DNA of 27,274 nt, from the IMG/VR virus record IMGVR_UViG_3300002180_000042, positions 1 to 27,274 of that record. One strand, written 5' to 3'. This DNA is from a virus. The notes beneath the pieces were generated by a model. That model was not told the DNA's origin. It ran no database searches and saw nothing but the letters and a program-made list of their open reading frames with translations. This document shows, one piece after another, positions 16,432 through 24,043 of the stretch (within the stretch, counting starts at the first letter, position 1; the number at the start of each line of letters is the position of its first letter). A program made the translations under genes and the position numbers.

Positions 16432-17841
16432 CTATGCGTAGCCGAAGGAGAATACCTGGCCGGCATCCAGGCCATGCCATGCTAATGCCATCGCCGCGAT
16501 GCTATCCGGGAGGTGACCGCTTCCGTATACATCATCTACCGATGCATGCTTGTGCTCATTATACATAAAATCAATCATCGGCGCTACTATCTCGCCACGC
16601 TCAATAGCGGCAATATAGTTGCTCAGCAAGTCAGAGCGGGCACGACCGACCATTACAAAGCTCGTGGCTGCCGATCTTAACTGATCGTTCACCACATCGC
16701 CTAGCCCTGTGCCGTCGTGGACGCCACTGCCGCCATATCGCTCTAGCCGCCTATCAAGCTTGCCTGTCATGACGGGCCAGGGAAGCCGCCCACACCGTTC
16801 AAATGCCACCGTCCGTATCGGGTTTGAACTCGCATTCAATGTAGCAACGACCGTCCAATCCTTCTTTTTAGCCCAGTCCGCGCCGGTGGTATAGGGCAAT
16901 AACTCCACGTTGCCGCTCTCGCACTCTGGGCATTCCTCATCAACCTCAAATAATGCGTCGCACTCCAGGCACTTCATCAGTGGCGGTTCAGCCTCAATAT
17001 ACTCGCCGTTGCCACCGGTATACTTGCCCAGGTCGGCGCGAAACATAGCCTCAACCGACGCGGGTTGAATGGCGCGGCTTTCTGGCGACGGCTCCTGTAG
17101 GTCATATTCCACATTCCACATAGCCGCCGTCACGTCTTGGCGCTTGCCCTCAATCTCGGCGGCGTCGAGCCATCCCTTCTCTGTTTCCTTGTAGCACCAT
17201 TCATGAACCTTCCAGCCCTTCTCCGCTGCCCGCTGTAGCACCTCTGTCATCGTGCCGTCGGCATGCTGGTGCGTACTGGAAATGACAGTCTGCGCCGGAA
17301 CGCCATCCTTGCCCATCGTCTGACCCATCGCGGCGTCGAGAATACTCAATTCCATTTCGTCGGCCTCATCCAGGCGCAGGCGCTGGGGATGTGGCCCTCT
17401 GGTGCTACGCGAGCTTGCCAGTAGCGCCTTGATAGTATTGCCCCATGCCAAGTGCGTCTCCCGTTTCGATGGGTCTGAAACTAGCAGATTGGCCGGCGCA
17501 CCCTCGTAATCCCAAAACTTTTTGGCATATTTATGTACGTTCTCTGACTGCTCGCCGCTGCCCCCCAAGATGTTTACGTCTGCTTTGAGCGTAACCGCTT
17601 CCGTCAGTCCCAACAATGCCAACAGGAATGACTTGCCGCCAAAGCCTCGGCTGGCCTTCCACACCGCCACTCGGTGACGGGCGAAGTAGGCATCAGCAAA
17701 AGCCCGCCAGGGAGTACTGTGATTCGGGCATACCTGAACATCCGGTATCTCCACGCCCCAAGCCACACGAATGAATTCGCGCAGGCTGTCCTCGTCTGCG
17801 ATGGGTAGGTGGAAACGATGCTCAGTCGCTTGCTGTGCCAT
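16432..17841 (-). CDS. terL: Terminase large subunit
   Basis: 469 residues. ATPase and nuclease motor of DNA packaging. Walker A is KASRGFGGKS (62-71), Walker B is RLRLDEADEM (154-163), the coupling motif is VISSTHQHADG. The RuvC-like nuclease domain contains TGADWAKKKDWT (acidic D322 and surroundings), HDGTGLGDV (D376, D382) and LPDSIAAMALAWHG at the end. Between ATPase and nuclease is a zinc ribbon: CLEC (291-294) and CPEC (304-307), nine residues between pairs. That insertion is uncommon in such subunits. The ATG at 17841 has no good ribosome site and lies 20 bases inside the small-subunit gene, so translational coupling is likely. Confidence 0.94.
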   Translation of the reverse strand: MAQQATEHRFHLPIADEDSLREFIRVAWGVEIPDVQVCPNHSTPWRAFADAYFARHRVAVWKASRGFGGKSFLLALLGLTEAVTLKADVNILGGSGEQSENVHKYAKKFWDYEGAPANLLVSDPSKRETHLAWGNTIKALLASSRSTRGPHPQRLRLDEADEMELSILDAAMGQTMGKDGVPAQTVISSTHQHADGTMTEVLQRAAEKGWKVHEWCYKETEKGWLDAAEIEGKRQDVTAAMWNVEYDLQEPSPESRAIQPASVEAMFRADLGKYTGGNGEYIEAEPPLMKCLECDALFEVDEECPECESGNVELLPYTTGADWAKKKDWTVVATLNASSNPIRTVAFERCGRLPWPVMTGKLDRRLERYGGSGVHDGTGLGDVVNDQLRSAATSFVMVGRARSDLLSNYIAAIERGEIVAPMIDFMYNEHKHASVDDVYGSGHLPDSIAAMALAWHGLDAGQVFSFGYA

Positions 17842-18208
17842 GCTCTATTATTGTGATAGTGTTTGAAAGCGGCTTGCCGTCGGTTGTCACGTCAAGATGC
17901 TTGCTGTCCGTCCATCCCGGTTCACCCGGTCGTTCGCGCCCTGGACCGTAACGTAGCCAGTTGAACGGTGCTTCAGCGAACACCTTATTTTCAGCCGCAA
18001 CGCGGGCTTGAGCACGAGCTTGCCGAACCTCAATGCAAAACGTGCGAAACGGCTCCTCTGCCCGCTTCTCCCCTCGGTTCATCCAGCGCCGAAAAGTTCC
18101 TGGATCGATTCCGACGGCCTGCGCCGCTACATAGTCAAATGCACCACCACGAATGTACTGGATGATGAGTTTATGCACTTCCGGCGTCAGTTTCGTTCGG
18201 CGTCCCAT
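17822..18208 (-). CDS. terS: Terminase small subunit (helix-turn-helix)
   Basis: 128 residues. It recognises phage DNA and directs the large subunit. The N-terminus has the expected helix-turn-helix: KLTPEVHKLIIQYIRGGAF, then YVAAQAVGIDPGTFRRWMNR, followed by a helical region with EVRQARAQARVAAENKV and a basic, Gly-rich tail. The TAGGAG site is 4-5 bases before ATG. It begins 7 bases after the ParB/Srx gene and overlaps the large subunit by 20 bases, so the modification cassette, terminases and head genes seem to be one transcription unit. Family membership follows the helix-turn-helix pattern and position. Confidence 0.85.
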   Translation of the reverse strand: MGRRTKLTPEVHKLIIQYIRGGAFDYVAAQAVGIDPGTFRRWMNRGEKRAEEPFRTFCIEVRQARAQARVAAENKVFAEAPFNWLRYGPGRERPGEPGWTDSKHLDVTTDGKPLSNTITIIEHGTASD

Positions 18209-18214
18209 TTGCTC

Positions 18215-18778
18215 CTACTTTGCACCCTGGCTATCCTCATACTTCTTCTTCAACAAAATCTGCTTCCTAGTTACCCAGGCCCTCTTATATTTGGTGTCCT
18301 TGAACAGTTTAGAGAAGCCGGTGATGTGCTTGAGCCTCAATATCTCCTCCGCCTCCATCCCCAACTCATTGCAAATATCAGCGTCACTCCATCCATTATC
18401 AAGCATTTGGAAAACTAAATTTGACATGCCGTTAGTAGAATGCTTGCCCCTGGCCCGGTTATGCCGTATCGTCGATGCCATTCTATCATTGATGCTCTTG
18501 TCAATTACAACGATCGGGAGCAGGCCCCCGCAACTGTCAAGAATGTCCTGGTGGCTCTTCATCACATAATAACGGTGAAAGCCATCCACGATGATGTACT
18601 TGTCCAGGCCTGGATCATAGATGGTTACGATTGGCTGGGTATACCCATCATGCTTGATTGAAATGTACAGTAGGTGCAACTCAATTGAAGCGACGAGGTT
18701 AGGATTATAGTCATTGGGTTGAACCTTTTCCAGTGGAACCCATTGCACATCACTGATTGGCTGGTCCTCAAGGCTCAT
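18215..18778 (-). CDS. ParB/Srx-fold protein, IbrB-like
   Basis: 187 residues. The N-terminal ParB/sulfiredoxin fold is visible: VPLEKVQPNDYNPNL, the strand QPIVTIYDPGLDKYIIV and the signature VDGFHRY (64-70), counterpart of the GxxR/DGHHR motif of ParB-type nucleotide-binding proteins. The rest has helix-turn-helix-like WSDADICNELGMEAEEILRL followed by a basic tail. In E. coli the ParB-like IbrB and the PAPS-reductase-like IbrA occur as a pair that activates prophage eib genes; here the two genes overlap by 4 bases in the same order as their partner. Its biochemistry is not known to me beyond that family link, and CTP or ATP binding is an inference from the fold. Confidence 0.72.
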   Translation of the reverse strand: MSLEDQPISDVQWVPLEKVQPNDYNPNLVASIELHLLYISIKHDGYTQPIVTIYDPGLDKYIIVDGFHRYYVMKSHQDILDSCGGLLPIVVIDKSINDRMASTIRHNRARGKHSTNGMSNLVFQMLDNGWSDADICNELGMEAEEILRLKHITGFSKLFKDTKYKRAWVTRKQILLKKKYEDSQGAK

Positions 18779-19917
18779 TGTATGCCCTGCGATTCGAGCA
18801 TCTGGCGTATACTGCGCTTGCCTGCGCCGAACCTACCGGTCACGAGATGCCTACCATTGGCGGCTACGAAGGTGCTCTGCTTCGTACCATGATAGTCATT
18901 GGTCAATATCACCCCAACCTGCATCTTCATCAGTTTTTGATAGATCGTGTCAGCGTAGCGCCTCTCCTCTGATGAAAAGGACTTCGCCATTTTACGCCTA
19001 CGGTTCTCATCATAAATCAAATTCTCCAAGAGATAATCGCGATACTCCCGCCAACTCTTGAACATATGGGGCAGGGTTGAGGGAAGCAAGAAATCCTTTG
19101 CCATTTGCCCCGCCGTGTTGATGCCAGATATGCGCCTTGTCAATTTAGCCCAGGTATCACCCTCAACCTCTTGGAGATAAAAAAGTGTTTTCACGGCTGT
19201 CTCATGATGAACGTTTGATACCCTCATCTCTCTTATTGGTATGCCATACTGGTACATGTAATCGTAAAGTTTGCAGTAGGGCCAGCCATTGTCATATATG
19301 GCCTTCCACACGTCAGTGTAACTCCAATCATAGATGGGATAAAAGGTGTAATGCCCCCTCTTGACGTCCTCCTTGCTGCCCCACGTGATGTCTTTGTATG
19401 TGATATAGCTGGTCAATCCCATCCGCCGGGCGGGGCTCTCCTCGGCCCTCACACCTGCAAGTCTAGCGACACTGGCGTGGGGATAATGCACTTTGTTATA
19501 AGCCTCAAACATGGCGGCAAACCTGTCACATCCATACCTATTGACCTTGATGCTGTCTGGCTCCTTGTCCCTAATCCACTCCTGGCCCTTTTCCCAGCAG
19601 TGAAGCCACGGCTCAATGGTTGAGGTGGCATTGAAGAGTCTCATTGGTATCTGCAACCAAAGCGGCTCAACGCGCGGGTCACTCATTATCACCCGCATGT
19701 GGTCAATGACCGCTTGCCACTCCGCCTCTTGGTCAATGAACATTGTTTTTAACGGTAATCGGCCCTTTTCTTCTGCTACCTGTAAGGCCAGATTGAGAAT
19801 GATTGTACTGTCCTTGCCGCCCGAGGTATTGACGATGACATTGGGAAATTCATCGAACAGGTATCGTATTCGATCCAGCGCCGCGTCGAAGACATTTTGA
19901 GAAAGGTAAATTTTCAC
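18775..19917 (-). CDS. PAPS-reductase family (IbrA-like, DUF3440-type) PP-loop protein
   Basis: 380 residues. The N-type ATP-pyrophosphatase signature SGGKDS is at 32-37 (NTSGGKDSTIILNLAL), followed by TMFIDQEAEW, characteristic of the PAPS-reductase-like HUP fold. The C-terminal half (YPIYDWSYTDVWKAIYDNGW, YDYMYQYGIPIREMRVSN) is the region that marks the IbrA/DUF3440 subgroup, in contrast to true sulfate reductases. In E. coli IbrA with IbrB is a regulator of prophage genes; related PP-loop proteins (DndC) take part in DNA phosphorothioation. It overlaps both neighbours by 4 bases. The reaction is not established here; nucleotide-dependent activation, for example adenylation, is a reasonable assumption. 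Confidence 0.8.
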   Translation of the reverse strand: MKIYLSQNVFDAALDRIRYLFDEFPNVIVNTSGGKDSTIILNLALQVAEEKGRLPLKTMFIDQEAEWQAVIDHMRVIMSDPRVEPLWLQIPMRLFNATSTIEPWLHCWEKGQEWIRDKEPDSIKVNRYGCDRFAAMFEAYNKVHYPHASVARLAGVRAEESPARRMGLTSYITYKDITWGSKEDVKRGHYTFYPIYDWSYTDVWKAIYDNGWPYCKLYDYMYQYGIPIREMRVSNVHHETAVKTLFYLQEVEGDTWAKLTRRISGINTAGQMAKDFLLPSTLPHMFKSWREYRDYLLENLIYDENRRRKMAKSFSSEERRYADTIYQKLMKMQVGVILTNDYHGTKQSTFVAANGRHLVTGRFGAGKRSIRQMLESQGIQ

Positions 19918-20726
19918 TTTTCACCCGTGGCAATCAAAAAGTTTCCGTACTCTATGATCTCACCACCTAGTTCCTCTTCCCCGCCTGTAAAATGCGGAAT
20001 CTCCACACCCGTCTTGGTATAAGTCAAAGGATAATACCCGGGCTTGTAGAACATCAAAAGATACTTTCCGCCTGGCTCAAGCATTGTCTCAATCCGTGAT
20101 AGAGTTGAAGGGTGAATGTAACTCGCAGCGCCAAATAGGGCCACGATGGTATCATATATCCCATCAAAGAAGGTTTCAAAGTGTGTCTTTATGACGTCTT
20201 CAGTGTATCGTGGATGCTTGGCTTTCAGCAAGTCAAGCATACCCCCAGAAGGGTCAATGCCCGTATACTGTGCCGGGGAGATGTAGTCCAATAGCAGACC
20301 TGAACCGCACCCGATGTCAAGAACGCTACCAACGTCTTGGGGCAACAGCGCGAAAACGTCTCGATTCTCTCGCTCACTCAACTCATCACAAAAGAGACTG
20401 TCATACCTGTCCGCAATATCATCATAGGGGCTGCGGGCGTCAACGTGCGCCCTATTGATAAGAATAGTCTTGGGTATTGGCGCGCCCATCGTCCAGTATT
20501 TCATGCCATTGATATTGAATTTAGTATACCAGGTGCGCCCATATCTTTCCTTGTAGCCGTATCGCCTGATCAGGGTGACTATCTCATTGAATAACTCATC
20601 ATTGTACCACTCCCTTCGCAAGGTATACCAGTGGGGAGCGTGCGGCATAGTCTTGGCGAAAATCCATCGCTTGCTCAATAAGGTCTTGCAGATGTGATTA
20701 AAAACGTCAAGGCTGGGAATATTCAC
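19914..20726 (-). CDS. SAM methyltransferase with an N-terminal recognition-like domain
   Basis: 270 residues. The C-terminal half is a class I methyltransferase: VLDIGCGSGLLLDYI with motif I at 135-143, YTGIDPSGGMLDLLKAKHP, and DTIVALFGAASYIHPSTL. The first 95 residues form a separate small domain (WIFAKTMPHAPHWYTLRREW, YGRTWYTKFNINGMKYWTMG) rich in Trp, Tyr and basic residues, seen with phage methyltransferases by impression only. No DNA methyltransferase NPPY/DPPY motif is present, so the substrate may be a small molecule, protein or modified base. It shares 4-base overlaps with the ParB-like gene before it and with the PAPS-reductase-like gene after it. Confidence 0.78.
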   Translation of the reverse strand: MNIPSLDVFNHICKTLLSKRWIFAKTMPHAPHWYTLRREWYNDELFNEIVTLIRRYGYKERYGRTWYTKFNINGMKYWTMGAPIPKTILINRAHVDARSPYDDIADRYDSLFCDELSERENRDVFALLPQDVGSVLDIGCGSGLLLDYISPAQYTGIDPSGGMLDLLKAKHPRYTEDVIKTHFETFFDGIYDTIVALFGAASYIHPSTLSRIETMLEPGGKYLLMFYKPGYYPLTYTKTGVEIPHFTGGEEELGGEIIEYGNFLIATGEK

Positions 20727-21286
20727 AGTATATCCCGCTTATTCAAAAAGAAAATCTCCGCACAGTGGGGGCAGGTAACTTCAACCTGATCAACATCTGT
20801 ATCCTCAAATCGACCTTCAAGCCGTTGCCTCTCTCGCTCTATGTCATCATCTGTTACTATACCACCCGCGCTAGTAGGGTTAAGCGAGGGACTGAATGGA
20901 GAGTCGTCCTCAGCCAATCTCTCCAACAGCGCCTTAACCGCCTCGCTCTCAGTCTCTACCGTCTCAAGCAAGGCATCGAGGGCGTCCGATTCGGCTTCCG
21001 CGAGGGCGGCGATAGGATCGAGGGTTGCGAGTATCAGTCGCTCCTGCTCCTCTGTCCAATTGCCAATGAGAACAGGAACCGGCCCATCGTGATCAATCTC
21101 CCGGCGCAGGTGGCCGTCAATGAGCCTATTAGTGCCTTCGTTGAAAAGCAGCGCCCCCGCCCACCCCACCTGATCAACAACTGCCTCTACCGCCTCCTTC
21201 TGTGCCTTTGGATGGCGTCGCCAGTTCGCCGGGTTGGGCGTGAGGGTTTCGGGATCAATCCATTCTAGCCGTAGTTTATCACTCAT
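20723..21286 (-). CDS. ParB-like nuclease-domain protein with C-terminal Cys pair
   Basis: 187 residues. The N-terminal ParB fold is marked by WIDPETLTPNPANWRRHPKAQ and the signature IDGHLRRE (56-63), typical of phage ParB-like proteins that often stand beside DNA methyltransferases. The middle is a long acidic helical stretch (EQERLILATLDPIAALAEAE and so on), and the end carries a CPHC pair (172-175) in EVTCPHCAEIFFL, half of a zinc knuckle. It is the first gene of the cassette, preceded by a structured 120-base leader; its ribosome site is weak (GATAGG, 2 bases before ATG). It overlaps the methyltransferase gene by 4 bases. It is unlike the second ParB-like protein of the cassette in sequence. 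Confidence 0.78.
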   Translation of the reverse strand: MSDKLRLEWIDPETLTPNPANWRRHPKAQKEAVEAVVDQVGWAGALLFNEGTNRLIDGHLRREIDHDGPVPVLIGNWTEEQERLILATLDPIAALAEAESDALDALLETVETESEAVKALLERLAEDDSPFSPSLNPTSAGGIVTDDDIERERQRLEGRFEDTDVDQVEVTCPHCAEIFFLNKRDIL

Positions 21287-21408
21287 AACCTATCCCAAAC
21301 CGGGCGGCGGGAAAGGAGAGAGGAACCCACCGCCCGGCGTCTCGCAGCCGCTGGGGACTGGCTGCCTGGTATGCGCGGGTAAAGGAGGATGAAAGCCCGC
21401 GCTTACAA
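21287..21408. other. Structured leader: three consecutive stem-loops
   Basis: Three stems lie between the zinc-ribbon gene and the ParB-like gene: CCGGGCGGcGGG/CCCaCCGCCCGG (21300-21311 with 21326-21337), GCAGCC/GGCTGC (21345-21366) and GCGCGGG/CCCGCGC (21373-21379 with 21396-21402). On the plus strand two loops hold purine-rich AAAGGAGAGAGG and AAAGGAGG. No T-run follows on either strand. It precedes the cassette on the minus strand and may be an mRNA leader or a protein-binding RNA. Confidence 0.55.
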
Positions 21409-21669
21409 TCACGTTCCTGCACTCATGGCACGGGTGAATTCATCCAGGTTTTCGATGTAGAGACCGGCGTCACATTCCCGTACCCACGGGGCGAGCGACC
21501 TGCCACAGCGTGGGCAAATCCAGCCCCGCCGCCCAGGAGATGGCGGCGTGTACGTCACCAGTCCAGGGGGGCCAAGATAGTTGGGACACCCTGGCTGATG
21601 CTCCCCTGCCGTATTTATGTCACAATAGGGACAAGAAAAGCCAATGTTACTAGACGCCGCCGTCAACAT
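21409..21669 (-). CDS. Small double zinc-ribbon protein
   Basis: 86 residues. The first knuckle is FSCPYCDINTAGEHQPGCPNY (C13, C16, C28) and the second is WICPRCGRSLAPWVREC (C52, C55, C66), a pattern common in small phage zinc-ribbon proteins of unknown role. The end DAGLYIENLDEFTRAMSAGT repeats the first residues of the gp10-like protein (11 of 12 identical at DAGxYIENLDEF), directly after the last Cys, so this gene appears fused to a copied fragment. GGAGG lies 6 bases before the ATG. It follows the holin-like gene by 15 bases. Nucleic-acid binding is plausible but unproven. Confidence 0.65.
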   Translation of the reverse strand: MLTAASSNIGFSCPYCDINTAGEHQPGCPNYLGPPGLVTYTPPSPGRRGWICPRCGRSLAPWVRECDAGLYIENLDEFTRAMSAGT

Positions 21670-21955: not shown

Positions 21956-21985
21956 AGTATACCACAGTTTAGGCCGAATTGTCAA
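21956..21985 (-). promoter_or_regulatory. Leftward promoter for the virion/packaging arm
   Basis: Minus-strand TTGACA (plus 21980-21985), 18 bases, then TATACT (plus 21956-21961). It leads into the holin-like gene at 21888. A perfect palindrome CCACCGGTGG at 21913-21922 lies in the leader and could bind a regulator. Confidence 0.75.
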
Positions 21986-22003
21986 GTGAAAAGAGAATAC
22001 CTC

Positions 22004-22032
22004 TTGACAACCTGCTAAAAGTGTGCTAAAAT
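22004..22032 (+). promoter_or_regulatory. Rightward promoter with extended -10
   Basis: TTGACA (22004-22009), 17 bases, TAAAAT (22027-22032) preceded by TGC. Back-to-back with the leftward promoter, 18 bases apart. Start of transcription is expected near 22039. Confidence 0.8.
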
Positions 22033-22589: not shown

Positions 22590-23351
22590 ATGAAAATCAT
22601 ATCATTAGGCTGGGGCGTGCAATCATTTGCGCTGGCTGCAATGTCAGCACTGGGAGTACTGCCAAGGGTTGACGCGGCGGTACATGCCGATACGGGTCAC
22701 GAACGCGCTGAGACTTATGCTTTTGCTGAGAGGTGGACGCCGTGGCTAGAGGGACACGGGATTCGCGTTGTGACAGTATGCACTCAGGACGGTTCTAATC
22801 AGGTGATGTGGGATGAAACTGGGCGCACGATGGTGCCGCTATTTACACTAGGGCTAAAAGGAAAGGGGATGCTGCGCCGCTCTTGTACTGACCGCTGGAA
22901 GATCAGTGAAGTGAAACGTTGGACTAGAACGCAAATACAAAAAGGGGAAGTCGCTCAAACCTGGCTCGGTATCACGTGGGATGAGGCGTACAGAATGAAG
23001 CCGTCTAATGTCAGTTACCAGCAACTTGTATATCCTCTTATTGAGATGTTCGGCAAGCCAATGTCTCGTACTGATGTAATATGCTGGCTCAAAGACAACG
23101 GCCTGGAAATACCCGTCAAATCATCTTGCGTATTCTGTCCATTCCACGACCGCGCAACCTGGCGCGAAATTCAATTGAGCGGTAATGGTGATTGGGAAAA
23201 GGCACTGGCAGTTGATCAGGCAATCAGGAATAAGCGCCCCGGCTATCTATGCTACCTGACAGCAGAGCGAAAGCCGCTTGACAAGTGCGACTTCCGTAGC
23301 CAAGAAGAACACGGACAATTGAACCTATGGCAGACAGAGGAGCAGCGATGA
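22590..23351 (+). CDS. PAPS-reductase-like / adenine nucleotide alpha-hydrolase fold protein
   Basis: 253 residues. The nucleotide loop is LGWGVQSFALAAM (about 6-18), a variant of the SGGxQS motif of phage PP-loop proteins. Family-typical elements follow: HADTGHERAETYAF, then GMLRRSCTDRWKISEVKRW (C99), LGITWDEAYRMKPSN, YPLIEMFGKPMSRTDVICWL, and KSSCVFCPFHDRATW with C180, C183 and H186, probably binding metal. True PAPS reductase lacks this end, so the reaction is unknown; such genes often stand near phage DNA methyltransferases. AAGGAGC is 6 bases before ATG, in a motif GGAGCAACGATGAAA resembling that of the next gene. The two overlap by 4 bases. Confidence 0.82.
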   Translation: MKIISLGWGVQSFALAAMSALGVLPRVDAAVHADTGHERAETYAFAERWTPWLEGHGIRVVTVCTQDGSNQVMWDETGRTMVPLFTLGLKGKGMLRRSCTDRWKISEVKRWTRTQIQKGEVAQTWLGITWDEAYRMKPSNVSYQQLVYPLIEMFGKPMSRTDVICWLKDNGLEIPVKSSCVFCPFHDRATWREIQLSGNGDWEKALAVDQAIRNKRPGYLCYLTAERKPLDKCDFRSQEEHGQLNLWQTEEQR

Positions 23352-24043
23352 AACTGGGAGACTACGAACTGGGACCAGGTAGCGAGCACGAGGGCATCTA
23401 CACGGGGGACGCGCGGGAGCTGGCGCAGGGGATACCGGATGAAAGCGTGGACTTGATTTTTACGGATCCCGTGTACCAAAACATAGATGACTACCGCTGG
23501 CTGGCAGAGACGGCGGCGAGGGTGCTGAAACCAGATTCGGCTTGCTTGGTCTTCTACGGTATCGGGTATGCACCCCAAACAATGCAGGCACTAATTGAGG
23601 GCGGCCTATCCTTTCGGTGGCAGATGGTGCATTACATGCCTGGGCAAAACCAGCGTGGGGCCTACAGAACTTTTAGCAACTGGAAGGCGATGCTGTGGAT
23701 GGAAAAGGGCACTAGGCATCCAGACCACCACATTAGAGACTTGATACTTGACCGCTCTGTACGGGTGCTGCCAAGTGGGGCTAATCACCGGTGGACAAAA
23801 AACGCTGACACCGTGGCCTATTATCTGACAGCGTTTTGCTTGCCAGGCGCAACTATCTTCGACCCCCTCACCGGCAGCGGCACAGTTCCCGCCGTCTGCA
23901 AGATGCTAAGTCGCCGCTACCTCGCATTTGAGATTGAGCCCGACGTAGCCGAACTGGCCCGCGATCGCGTTCGCCAAACTCAACCGCCGCTCCCGGGCTT
24001 GACGCTGGAAACACAAGGGGCGCTTAACCTAACAAAAACTTGA
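23348..24043 (+). CDS. DNA (adenine-N6 or cytosine-N4) methyltransferase, beta class
   Basis: 231 residues. Motif IV is TDPVYQ at 39-44, a variant of DPPY (Pro to Val), with VDLIF before it; motif I is FDPLTGSGT at 171-179 near the C-terminus, so the order is IV before I, i.e. beta class (PF01555-like). A target-recognition region of about 90 residues lies between. EIEPDVAELARDRV is the strand-helix after motif I. The DPVY substitution might reduce activity or be tolerated. The ATG at 23348 overlaps the upstream stop (ATGA) with GAGG 7 bases before. Upstream in-frame codons are in the previous gene. It may protect phage DNA from host restriction. Confidence 0.85.
   Translation: MKLGDYELGPGSEHEGIYTGDARELAQGIPDESVDLIFTDPVYQNIDDYRWLAETAARVLKPDSACLVFYGIGYAPQTMQALIEGGLSFRWQMVHYMPGQNQRGAYRTFSNWKAMLWMEKGTRHPDHHIRDLILDRSVRVLPSGANHRWTKNADTVAYYLTAFCLPGATIFDPLTGSGTVPAVCKMLSRRYLAFEIEPDVAELARDRVRQTQPPLPGLTLETQGALNLTKT

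Follow-up and report, generated by a model that had tools for sequence, protein, structure and literature searches.

Gene content of the cassette

We analysed a 27.3 kb stretch of viral DNA (hereafter the window) from the 32,070-base partial genome of IMG/VR virus record IMGVR_UViG_3300002180_000042, in which four minus-strand genes form a cassette. They encode, in order, a ParB-like protein (ParB1), a methyltransferase, an IbrA-like protein and an IbrB-like protein, and lead into the genes for the terminase small subunit (TerS), the terminase large subunit (TerL) and the portal protein (Table 1). The original prediction for this locus had described four co-directional genes in which two distinct ParB-like proteins flank a methyltransferase and a PP-loop protein carrying an SGGKDS motif, and both points were confirmed by the open reading frames (ORFs) and their profile matches. 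The methyltransferase ORF as a whole (19914-20726) joins an N-terminal domain (NTD) to a catalytic core (MTcore), and a gap of 6 bases separates the IbrB-like gene from TerS. Every junction within the cassette is a 4-base overlap, as had been claimed, although the overlaps are GTGA, GTGA and ATGA (with two GTG starts) rather than three copies of ATGA. The accompanying suggestion that these overlaps hold the proteins at a fixed ratio is unsupported, since 4-base overlaps are ordinary phage operon architecture. The cassette proper spans 18215-21286; the remainder of the interval first assigned to it, 21287-21408, is a non-coding upstream leader. This leader does hold a real hairpin of 13 bp, and a 146-nt stretch around it folds better than shuffled sequences (-59.4 kcal/mol; z -2.88 against 200 shuffles); it matched no Rfam family, and a function for the leader is unsupported.

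Table 1. Features of the cassette and its immediate context in the window
Feature	Position	Strand	Basis
ParB1, ParB/Srx-fold protein, 187 aa, with C-terminal CPHC (zinc-ribbon-like) tail	20723..21286	-	ORF, phrog matches
NTD, ~97-residue N-terminal domain of the methyltransferase	20436..20726	-	recurs as a separate gene; model
MTcore, class I SAM-dependent methyltransferase domain, small-molecule type	19914..20435	-	PF13489, Foldseek
IbrA-like PP-loop ATP pyrophosphatase with DUF3440, 380 aa	18775..19917	-	PF01507 + PF11922, phrog_2302
IbrB-like ParB/Srx-fold protein with DGFHR motif, 187 aa	18215..18778	-	phrog_2159
Terminase small subunit TerS (context)	17822..18208	-	phrog_4102 2.8e-17
Terminase large subunit TerL (context)	16432..17841	-	phrog_9 1.4e-9
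GC-rich hairpin, 13 bp, in upstream leader 21287-21408	21299..21338	-	fold computation

Protein families and active sites of IbrA, IbrB and ParB1

The profile searches proposed with the original prediction placed the window IbrA above the cut-offs of both PF01507 (60.4 bits; cut-off 22.5) and PF11922/DUF3440 (35.0; cut-off 25), with a match to phrog_2302 at 5e-85, and left IbrB below that of PF02195 (20.6 bits; cut-off 26.3). IbrB nevertheless matched the ParB-like family phrog_2159 at 1e-72, retained a DGFHR and an NRARG-type motif across 20 relatives, and had Noc/ParB and free serine kinase as matches in a PDB profile search. Together the two proteins carry the signature of an IbrA/IbrB pair, namely a PAPS_reduct and DUF3440 protein adjoining a ParB protein with DGFHR. 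ParB1 gave no ParB match in Pfam and was recognised through phrog_498 (1.2e-13), whose members are phage DNA methyltransferases with a fused ParB-like N-terminus, the part matched here, and through phrog_620 (6e-13). By these phrog families, the ParB, Noc and SerK profiles and a ParB-type domain bearing the DGxxR/GHxR motif, the ParB proteins of the cassette belong to the ParB/Srx superfamily.

Among 74 window-type IbrA proteins the motifs SGGKDS, D62xE64, G155xR157xxE160 (GxRxxE(S)) and P194xYDW (PxxDW) were invariant or nearly so, and no cysteine was conserved (59 of 74 in the best column, 37 of 74 in the next). The nearest solved relatives in a PDB profile search were flavin adenine dinucleotide (FAD) synthase, the ATP sulfurylase CysD and 3′-phosphoadenosine 5′-phosphosulfate (PAPS) reductase. 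FAD synthase and CysD form adenosine monophosphate (AMP) adducts. A full PP-loop site, the lack of a conserved cysteine and this kinship point to an IbrA that acts via adenylation instead of sulfur carriage.

These features also bear on the parallel first drawn with DndC, in which IbrA would act like DndC or SspD in phosphorothioation or some other insertion of sulfur. Dnd and Ssp systems do share with the cassette a PAPS-reductase-type PP-loop enzyme and a ParB-superfamily protein, DndB too having been assigned to that superfamily (PMC10853773), and IbrA gave weak DndC profile matches (PADLOC 2e-7; TIGR03183 30.7 bits). The TIGR03183 score is, however, far under the cut-off of 290.4, the cassette proteins, the only ones scanned for them, held no match to DndD, DndE, SspB or SspC, and the missing cysteine weakens the parallel further; we regard a sulfur-inserting role as quite unlikely.

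An N-terminal domain that occurs as a gene of its own

MTcore is a class I S-adenosylmethionine (SAM, AdoMet)-dependent methyltransferase, scoring 40.5 bits against PF13489 (cut-off 27) and above the cut-offs of PF08242, PF13649 and PF08241; its best Foldseek match was 2gs9 (2.3e-8), alongside small-molecule N- or C-methyltransferases. The whole NTD-methyltransferase protein was modelled with a predicted local distance difference test score (pLDDT) of 96.4 and a predicted template modelling score (pTM) of 0.92. The original prediction had rightly noted an extra N-terminal domain on the methyltransferase, and had missed that this domain belongs to the core in its own right, with the methyltransferase as one of several interchangeable enzymes. 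We base this assignment on the many loci that hold only the ~95 N-terminal residues, as a stand-alone gene of 90-120 aa at the same place as the methyltransferase. The domain has the signature WxFAKTMPxxPHxYTLR ... YKYWTMGxPxxxTxLINR, and P31, H32 and W78 were invariant across 55 diverse NTDs. Its model (pLDDT 94.7, pTM 0.85) runs helix-strand-strand-helix-four strands, and neither Foldseek against the PDB (nothing below E 0.5) nor a PDB profile search (no significant match) found a relative.

At two loci (L036 6200-6982 and L038 6543-7295) the NTD is fused behind a domain of ~160 residues without a Pfam match. Among 294 cellular genomes of a single phylum it was detected in 3, one of these being a planctomycete metagenome-assembled genome (MAG) contig with the cassette (L042), where MTA70-like, MTcore, IbrA, NTD-MTcore and IbrB genes lie in a row; the other two loci, viewed with more flank, held no further cassette gene. 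L215 (G202:C286), a locus from this search on a bacterial genome contig, carries a lone NTD gene (1644-1979) with no other cassette gene, and an ORF that by eye resembles the start of the type I restriction protein HsdM.

Recurrence of the cassette across viruses

A tblastn search of 50,697 phage genomes with the window methyltransferase returned no match, nor did searches with two more NTD proteins, of which one is standalone and the other fused. With a three-sequence methyltransferase profile, 38 loci were recovered from IMG/VR, plus one from a bacterial MAG. About 35 of the 38 viral loci from the NTD-motif query had IbrA nearby, and ParB1, IbrA and IbrB lay near the methyltransferase or NTD in nearly all loci of that query, with their order mostly kept. 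A separate query, built on an IbrA alignment, yielded at least 590 relatives, the best 80 of which were examined for gene content. These IbrA-centred viral loci contained IbrB (80/80), a ParB1-like gene (75/80) and the NTD (60/80); where at least 3 kb of upstream and 1.5 kb of downstream sequence was available, the counts were 51 of 51 for ParB1 and 41 of 51 for the NTD. The pattern was unchanged when all 126 IbrA loci were reduced to 85 at 90% IbrA identity.

The original prediction had proposed a joint system, an idea that would fail if homologues were scattered singly among phages; the survey instead found a recurring set, in the same order, before the terminases. Its recurrence at many loci that have diverged from one another is more than chance would give, and we conclude from these gene neighbourhoods that ParB1, NTD-methyltransferase, IbrA and IbrB constitute a conserved modular cassette in many unrelated phages.

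The exchangeable decorating slot

The place occupied by the methyltransferase in the window is a slot that differs between loci. Across the 80 IbrA-centred loci its families were GTb (30), MTcore (28), MTA70-like (21), DIOX (15), MT2 (15), GNAT (7), SpeD (3) and GTA (2). MTcore is fused to the NTD in the window and many other loci and is a separate gene in L020, L088, L097 and L106. All 17 of 17 GTb members matched the phrog_854 glucosyltransferase, and the HxD...H pattern of DIOX was invariant; neither GTb nor DIOX had a solved relative in sequence-profile searches. A family of DPPW-type DNA-amino methyltransferases also occupies the slot (N6_N4_Mtase 29.2 bits in L014, cut-off 26.7), and a second methyltransferase-like slot family carries an EPPW-like motif. 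Further occupants include a GNAT acetyltransferase (45.7 bits), an AdoMet decarboxylase (AdoMet_dc PF02675, 74 bits) and a pyruvoyl arginine decarboxylase (PvlArgDC PF01862, 165 bits). Genes for arginine decarboxylase or AdoMet decarboxylase lie within the cassette at L015 5925-6458, L036 6991-7368 and L038 7292-7669, which suggests agmatine or aminopropyl decorations. GTb and DIOX genes repeatedly stand side by side, an adjacency suggestive of hydroxylation followed by glycosylation. Systems that hypermodify DNA with a 2-oxoglutarate (2OG) oxygenase and a glucosyltransferase follow a base-J-like logic; the GTb-DIOX pairs of the relatives resemble these systems, and the window lacks such a pair.

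On a FastTree phylogeny of IbrA, whose deep order is approximate and whose individual nodes call for caution, slot-family combinations changed at least 45 times and single families 5 to 17 times (MTcore 13, MTA70 15, GTb 17, DIOX 11). As slot states change repeatedly on this tree, the core is retained while the decorator is exchanged.

Position before the terminases

Downstream of the cassette, the first ORF of >350 aa begins after about 300-1100 bp in most of the 85 nonredundant loci. Of 74 such ORFs, 69 fell in two similarity clusters, tested members of which matched Terminase_6C, Terminase_3 or TerL_ATPase/nuclease; the terminase of L065 is of the gpA type, and that of the window belongs to a further type. 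Because unrelated terminase types occupy the same gene position across loci, the position of the cassette is independent of terminase type. It had been suggested that the cassette marks a packaging signal, and the cassette does sit before terminases of several types. This position is the sole point in favour of packaging-site marking or terminase licensing: local marking would not predict many interchangeable decorations, IbrAB lies away from the terminase in several relatives, and we consider such a role very improbable.

Separation from E. coli-type IbrA/IbrB

The same procedure was applied as a control to 80 other loci, starting from a Streptococcus IbrA. IbrB was present in 77 of 80, ParB1 and the NTD in 0 of 80 each, and decorators in 1 of 80. 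With the control loci nearly devoid of them, the association with ParB1, NTD and decorators is specific to window-type IbrA. A SNF2-like helicase gene occurred in 24 of the 80 control loci; there, as at L044 3243-4454 and L047 2761-3999, it stands immediately before IbrA/IbrB, a second and different IbrAB context.

E. coli IbrAB is known to activate prophage eib genes (Sandt 2002, as cited in PMC10434257). A regulatory system of this kind, turning on phage genes with the methyltransferase as an accessory, would agree with the IbrA and IbrB family matches and with the ability of ParB folds to regulate transcription. The adjacent proteins and family signatures of the pair in E. coli ECOR-9, Flavobacterium and Streptococcus phages are indeed shared with the window. 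The window clade, in contrast, adds ParB1, the NTD and a decorating enzyme and sits before terminases, and the IbrA of E. coli phage PhiR5_2 falls inside the plain IbrAB (control) clade with 99% local support, apart from the window clade and without those additions. Regulation also leaves the glycosyltransferase, oxygenase, acetyltransferase and decarboxylase genes of the slot unexplained. The regulator parallel in the original prediction is thus weak; E. coli IbrAB regulation is a poor guide to the window cassette, and we judge a regulatory role unlikely.

The cassette in cultured phages

The lytic, cultured Microbacterium phage Rasputia encodes glycosyltransferases, an acetyltransferase, an NTD-methyltransferase (gp155, in which the NTD was found by profile search) and IbrA (gp156). 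Across the ends of its record follow IbrB (gp1, with DGFHR), two ParB1 proteins (gp2 and gp3, each with a CPxC tail), a helix-turn-helix protein at the position of the terminase small subunit, and the terminase. Its relative Hendrix, in which IbrA was detected by tblastn, is lytic with a circularly permuted genome (PMC7302621), so reading the Rasputia cassette across the record ends is reasonable. The host of these phages is M. foliorum NRRL B-24224. Compared with the window, Rasputia has more decorators (several glycosyltransferases and a GNAT) and an order permuted by the linearised record. Annotations of these Rogerhendrixvirus phages read 'adenylyltransferase/PAPS reductase', 'methyltransferase' and ParB-like genes, and the text consulted on them (PMC7302621) gives no modification-system role. 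The well-studied Mycobacterium phage Phlyer (L048 1-2717) and Arthrobacter phage Laroye (L046 226-6106) have ParB-like, IbrA and IbrB genes ahead of the terminase; their IbrA is distant and no NTD was detected in them.

Genes upstream of the cassette

Immediately upstream of the leader, an 86-aa protein with two CxxC pairs is encoded on the minus strand (21409-21669). Strong sigma-70-like promoter matches (11/12) lie back to back on both strands at 21956-22032, between the cassette side and the plus-strand genes. Divergent from the cassette, on the plus strand at 22590-24043, a gene for a second PP-loop protein (phrog_424 6.6e-33; SspD profile 9.4e-13) overlaps one for an N6/N4-type DNA methyltransferase (PF01555 42 bits). 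This pair may be part of the same modification pathway as the cassette.

A probable hypermodification cassette

The observed gene content, active-site motifs, conserved association and modular swapping of the cassette are best explained by a modular system for nucleic-acid hypermodification, which most likely acts on phage DNA before packaging; we hold this reading to be probable. The original proposal of DNA modification gains support as to modification from the swappable decorating enzymes, group transfer being encoded by the methyltransferase in the window and by glycosyl-, acetyl- and methyl-transferases, together with decarboxylases, in relatives. We infer DNA as the substrate because DPPW-type enzymes occur in the slot, kin of ParB1 are fused to DNA methyltransferases and the cassette lies next to the terminase. 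ParB1 and IbrB would bind DNA, use nucleotide, or both, and so recognise or prepare the substrate; IbrA would activate it, presumably by adenylation, making attachment of a group possible; the NTD would dock, orient or present it to the decorating enzyme; and the slot enzyme would complete the side chain, in this presumed order of steps. In the window, where a class I methyltransferase is fused to the NTD, the expected product would be a methyl-capped modified base, and relatives may finish with a glucosyltransferase and oxygenase, an acetyltransferase or polyamine-pathway enzymes. The likely benefit would be escape from host restriction.

Several observations weigh against hypermodification of DNA. 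The predicted fold of the window methyltransferase resembles small-molecule rather than DNA methyltransferases, and inspection of the alignment found neither DPPW/NPPY nor PC/ENV motifs in its MTcore. Base-handle enzymes (a thymidylate-synthase homologue, hydroxymethylase or CmoX) were absent among the four cassette proteins, to which this search was limited. The NTD went undetected in 20 of the 80 IbrA-centred loci, and in a few isolates no decorator accompanies IbrA/IbrB. The assignment of DIOX as an iron oxygenase is tentative, being made from its HxD...H pattern and weak cupin-like matches only. The slot families, moreover, were defined on loci from the window's own family before being tested on the separately queried set.

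A substrate other than DNA, be it RNA (transfer RNA or another kind), a nucleotide in free form or a protein of the virion, would suit the small-molecule type of MTcore. Polyamine-pathway enzymes serve transfer RNA modification elsewhere, and PP-loop enzymes act on transfer RNA, nucleotides and small molecules, which likewise speaks for such a substrate. The pre-terminase position, the ParB-type partners and the DPPW-type DNA-amino methyltransferases in the slot favour DNA, and we rate a non-DNA substrate as rather unlikely.

Hypermodification of phage DNA as a kind and IbrA/IbrB as a pair are already known. The CmoA-CmoX-CmoY cluster of phage S-B43, which hypermodifies cytosine, likewise assembles a side chain on the base through AMP-forming activation, often with a ParB-domain gene; there CmoX makes the handle with carboxy-SAM and an AMP-forming ligase makes an amide (PMC12783734). 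The cassette differs in that neither CmoX nor an AMP-forming ligase was found, leaving the PP-loop enzyme as the only candidate activator. Our literature search, which did not extend to a 2013 survey of base modification, found no description of a ParB1-NTD-IbrA-IbrB core with an exchangeable decorator, or of the NTD, and an earlier mention is possible. We tentatively suggest, as a possibility short of even, that this core defines a hitherto unrecognised class of DNA hypermodification, widespread in phages. In it the PP-loop enzyme would activate the base, or the group due for attachment, directly on DNA, the NTD would be essential for substrate handling or catalysis, and one and the same handle would receive different chemical caps in different phages.

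IbrA/IbrB-like pairs are common in phages, with at least 590 confirmed matches, and their annotations name them PAPS reductase, 'auxiliary metabolic' or regulator genes. The NTD adds a new domain, highly conserved and confidently modelled, that has no known fold relative, and the cultured lytic phage genus makes the hypermodification claim directly testable. If the proposal holds, a major IbrA clade would be re-annotated as the core of a decorating cassette, new DNA chemistries would be predicted, and the interchangeable enzymes would be on offer for nucleic-acid labelling.

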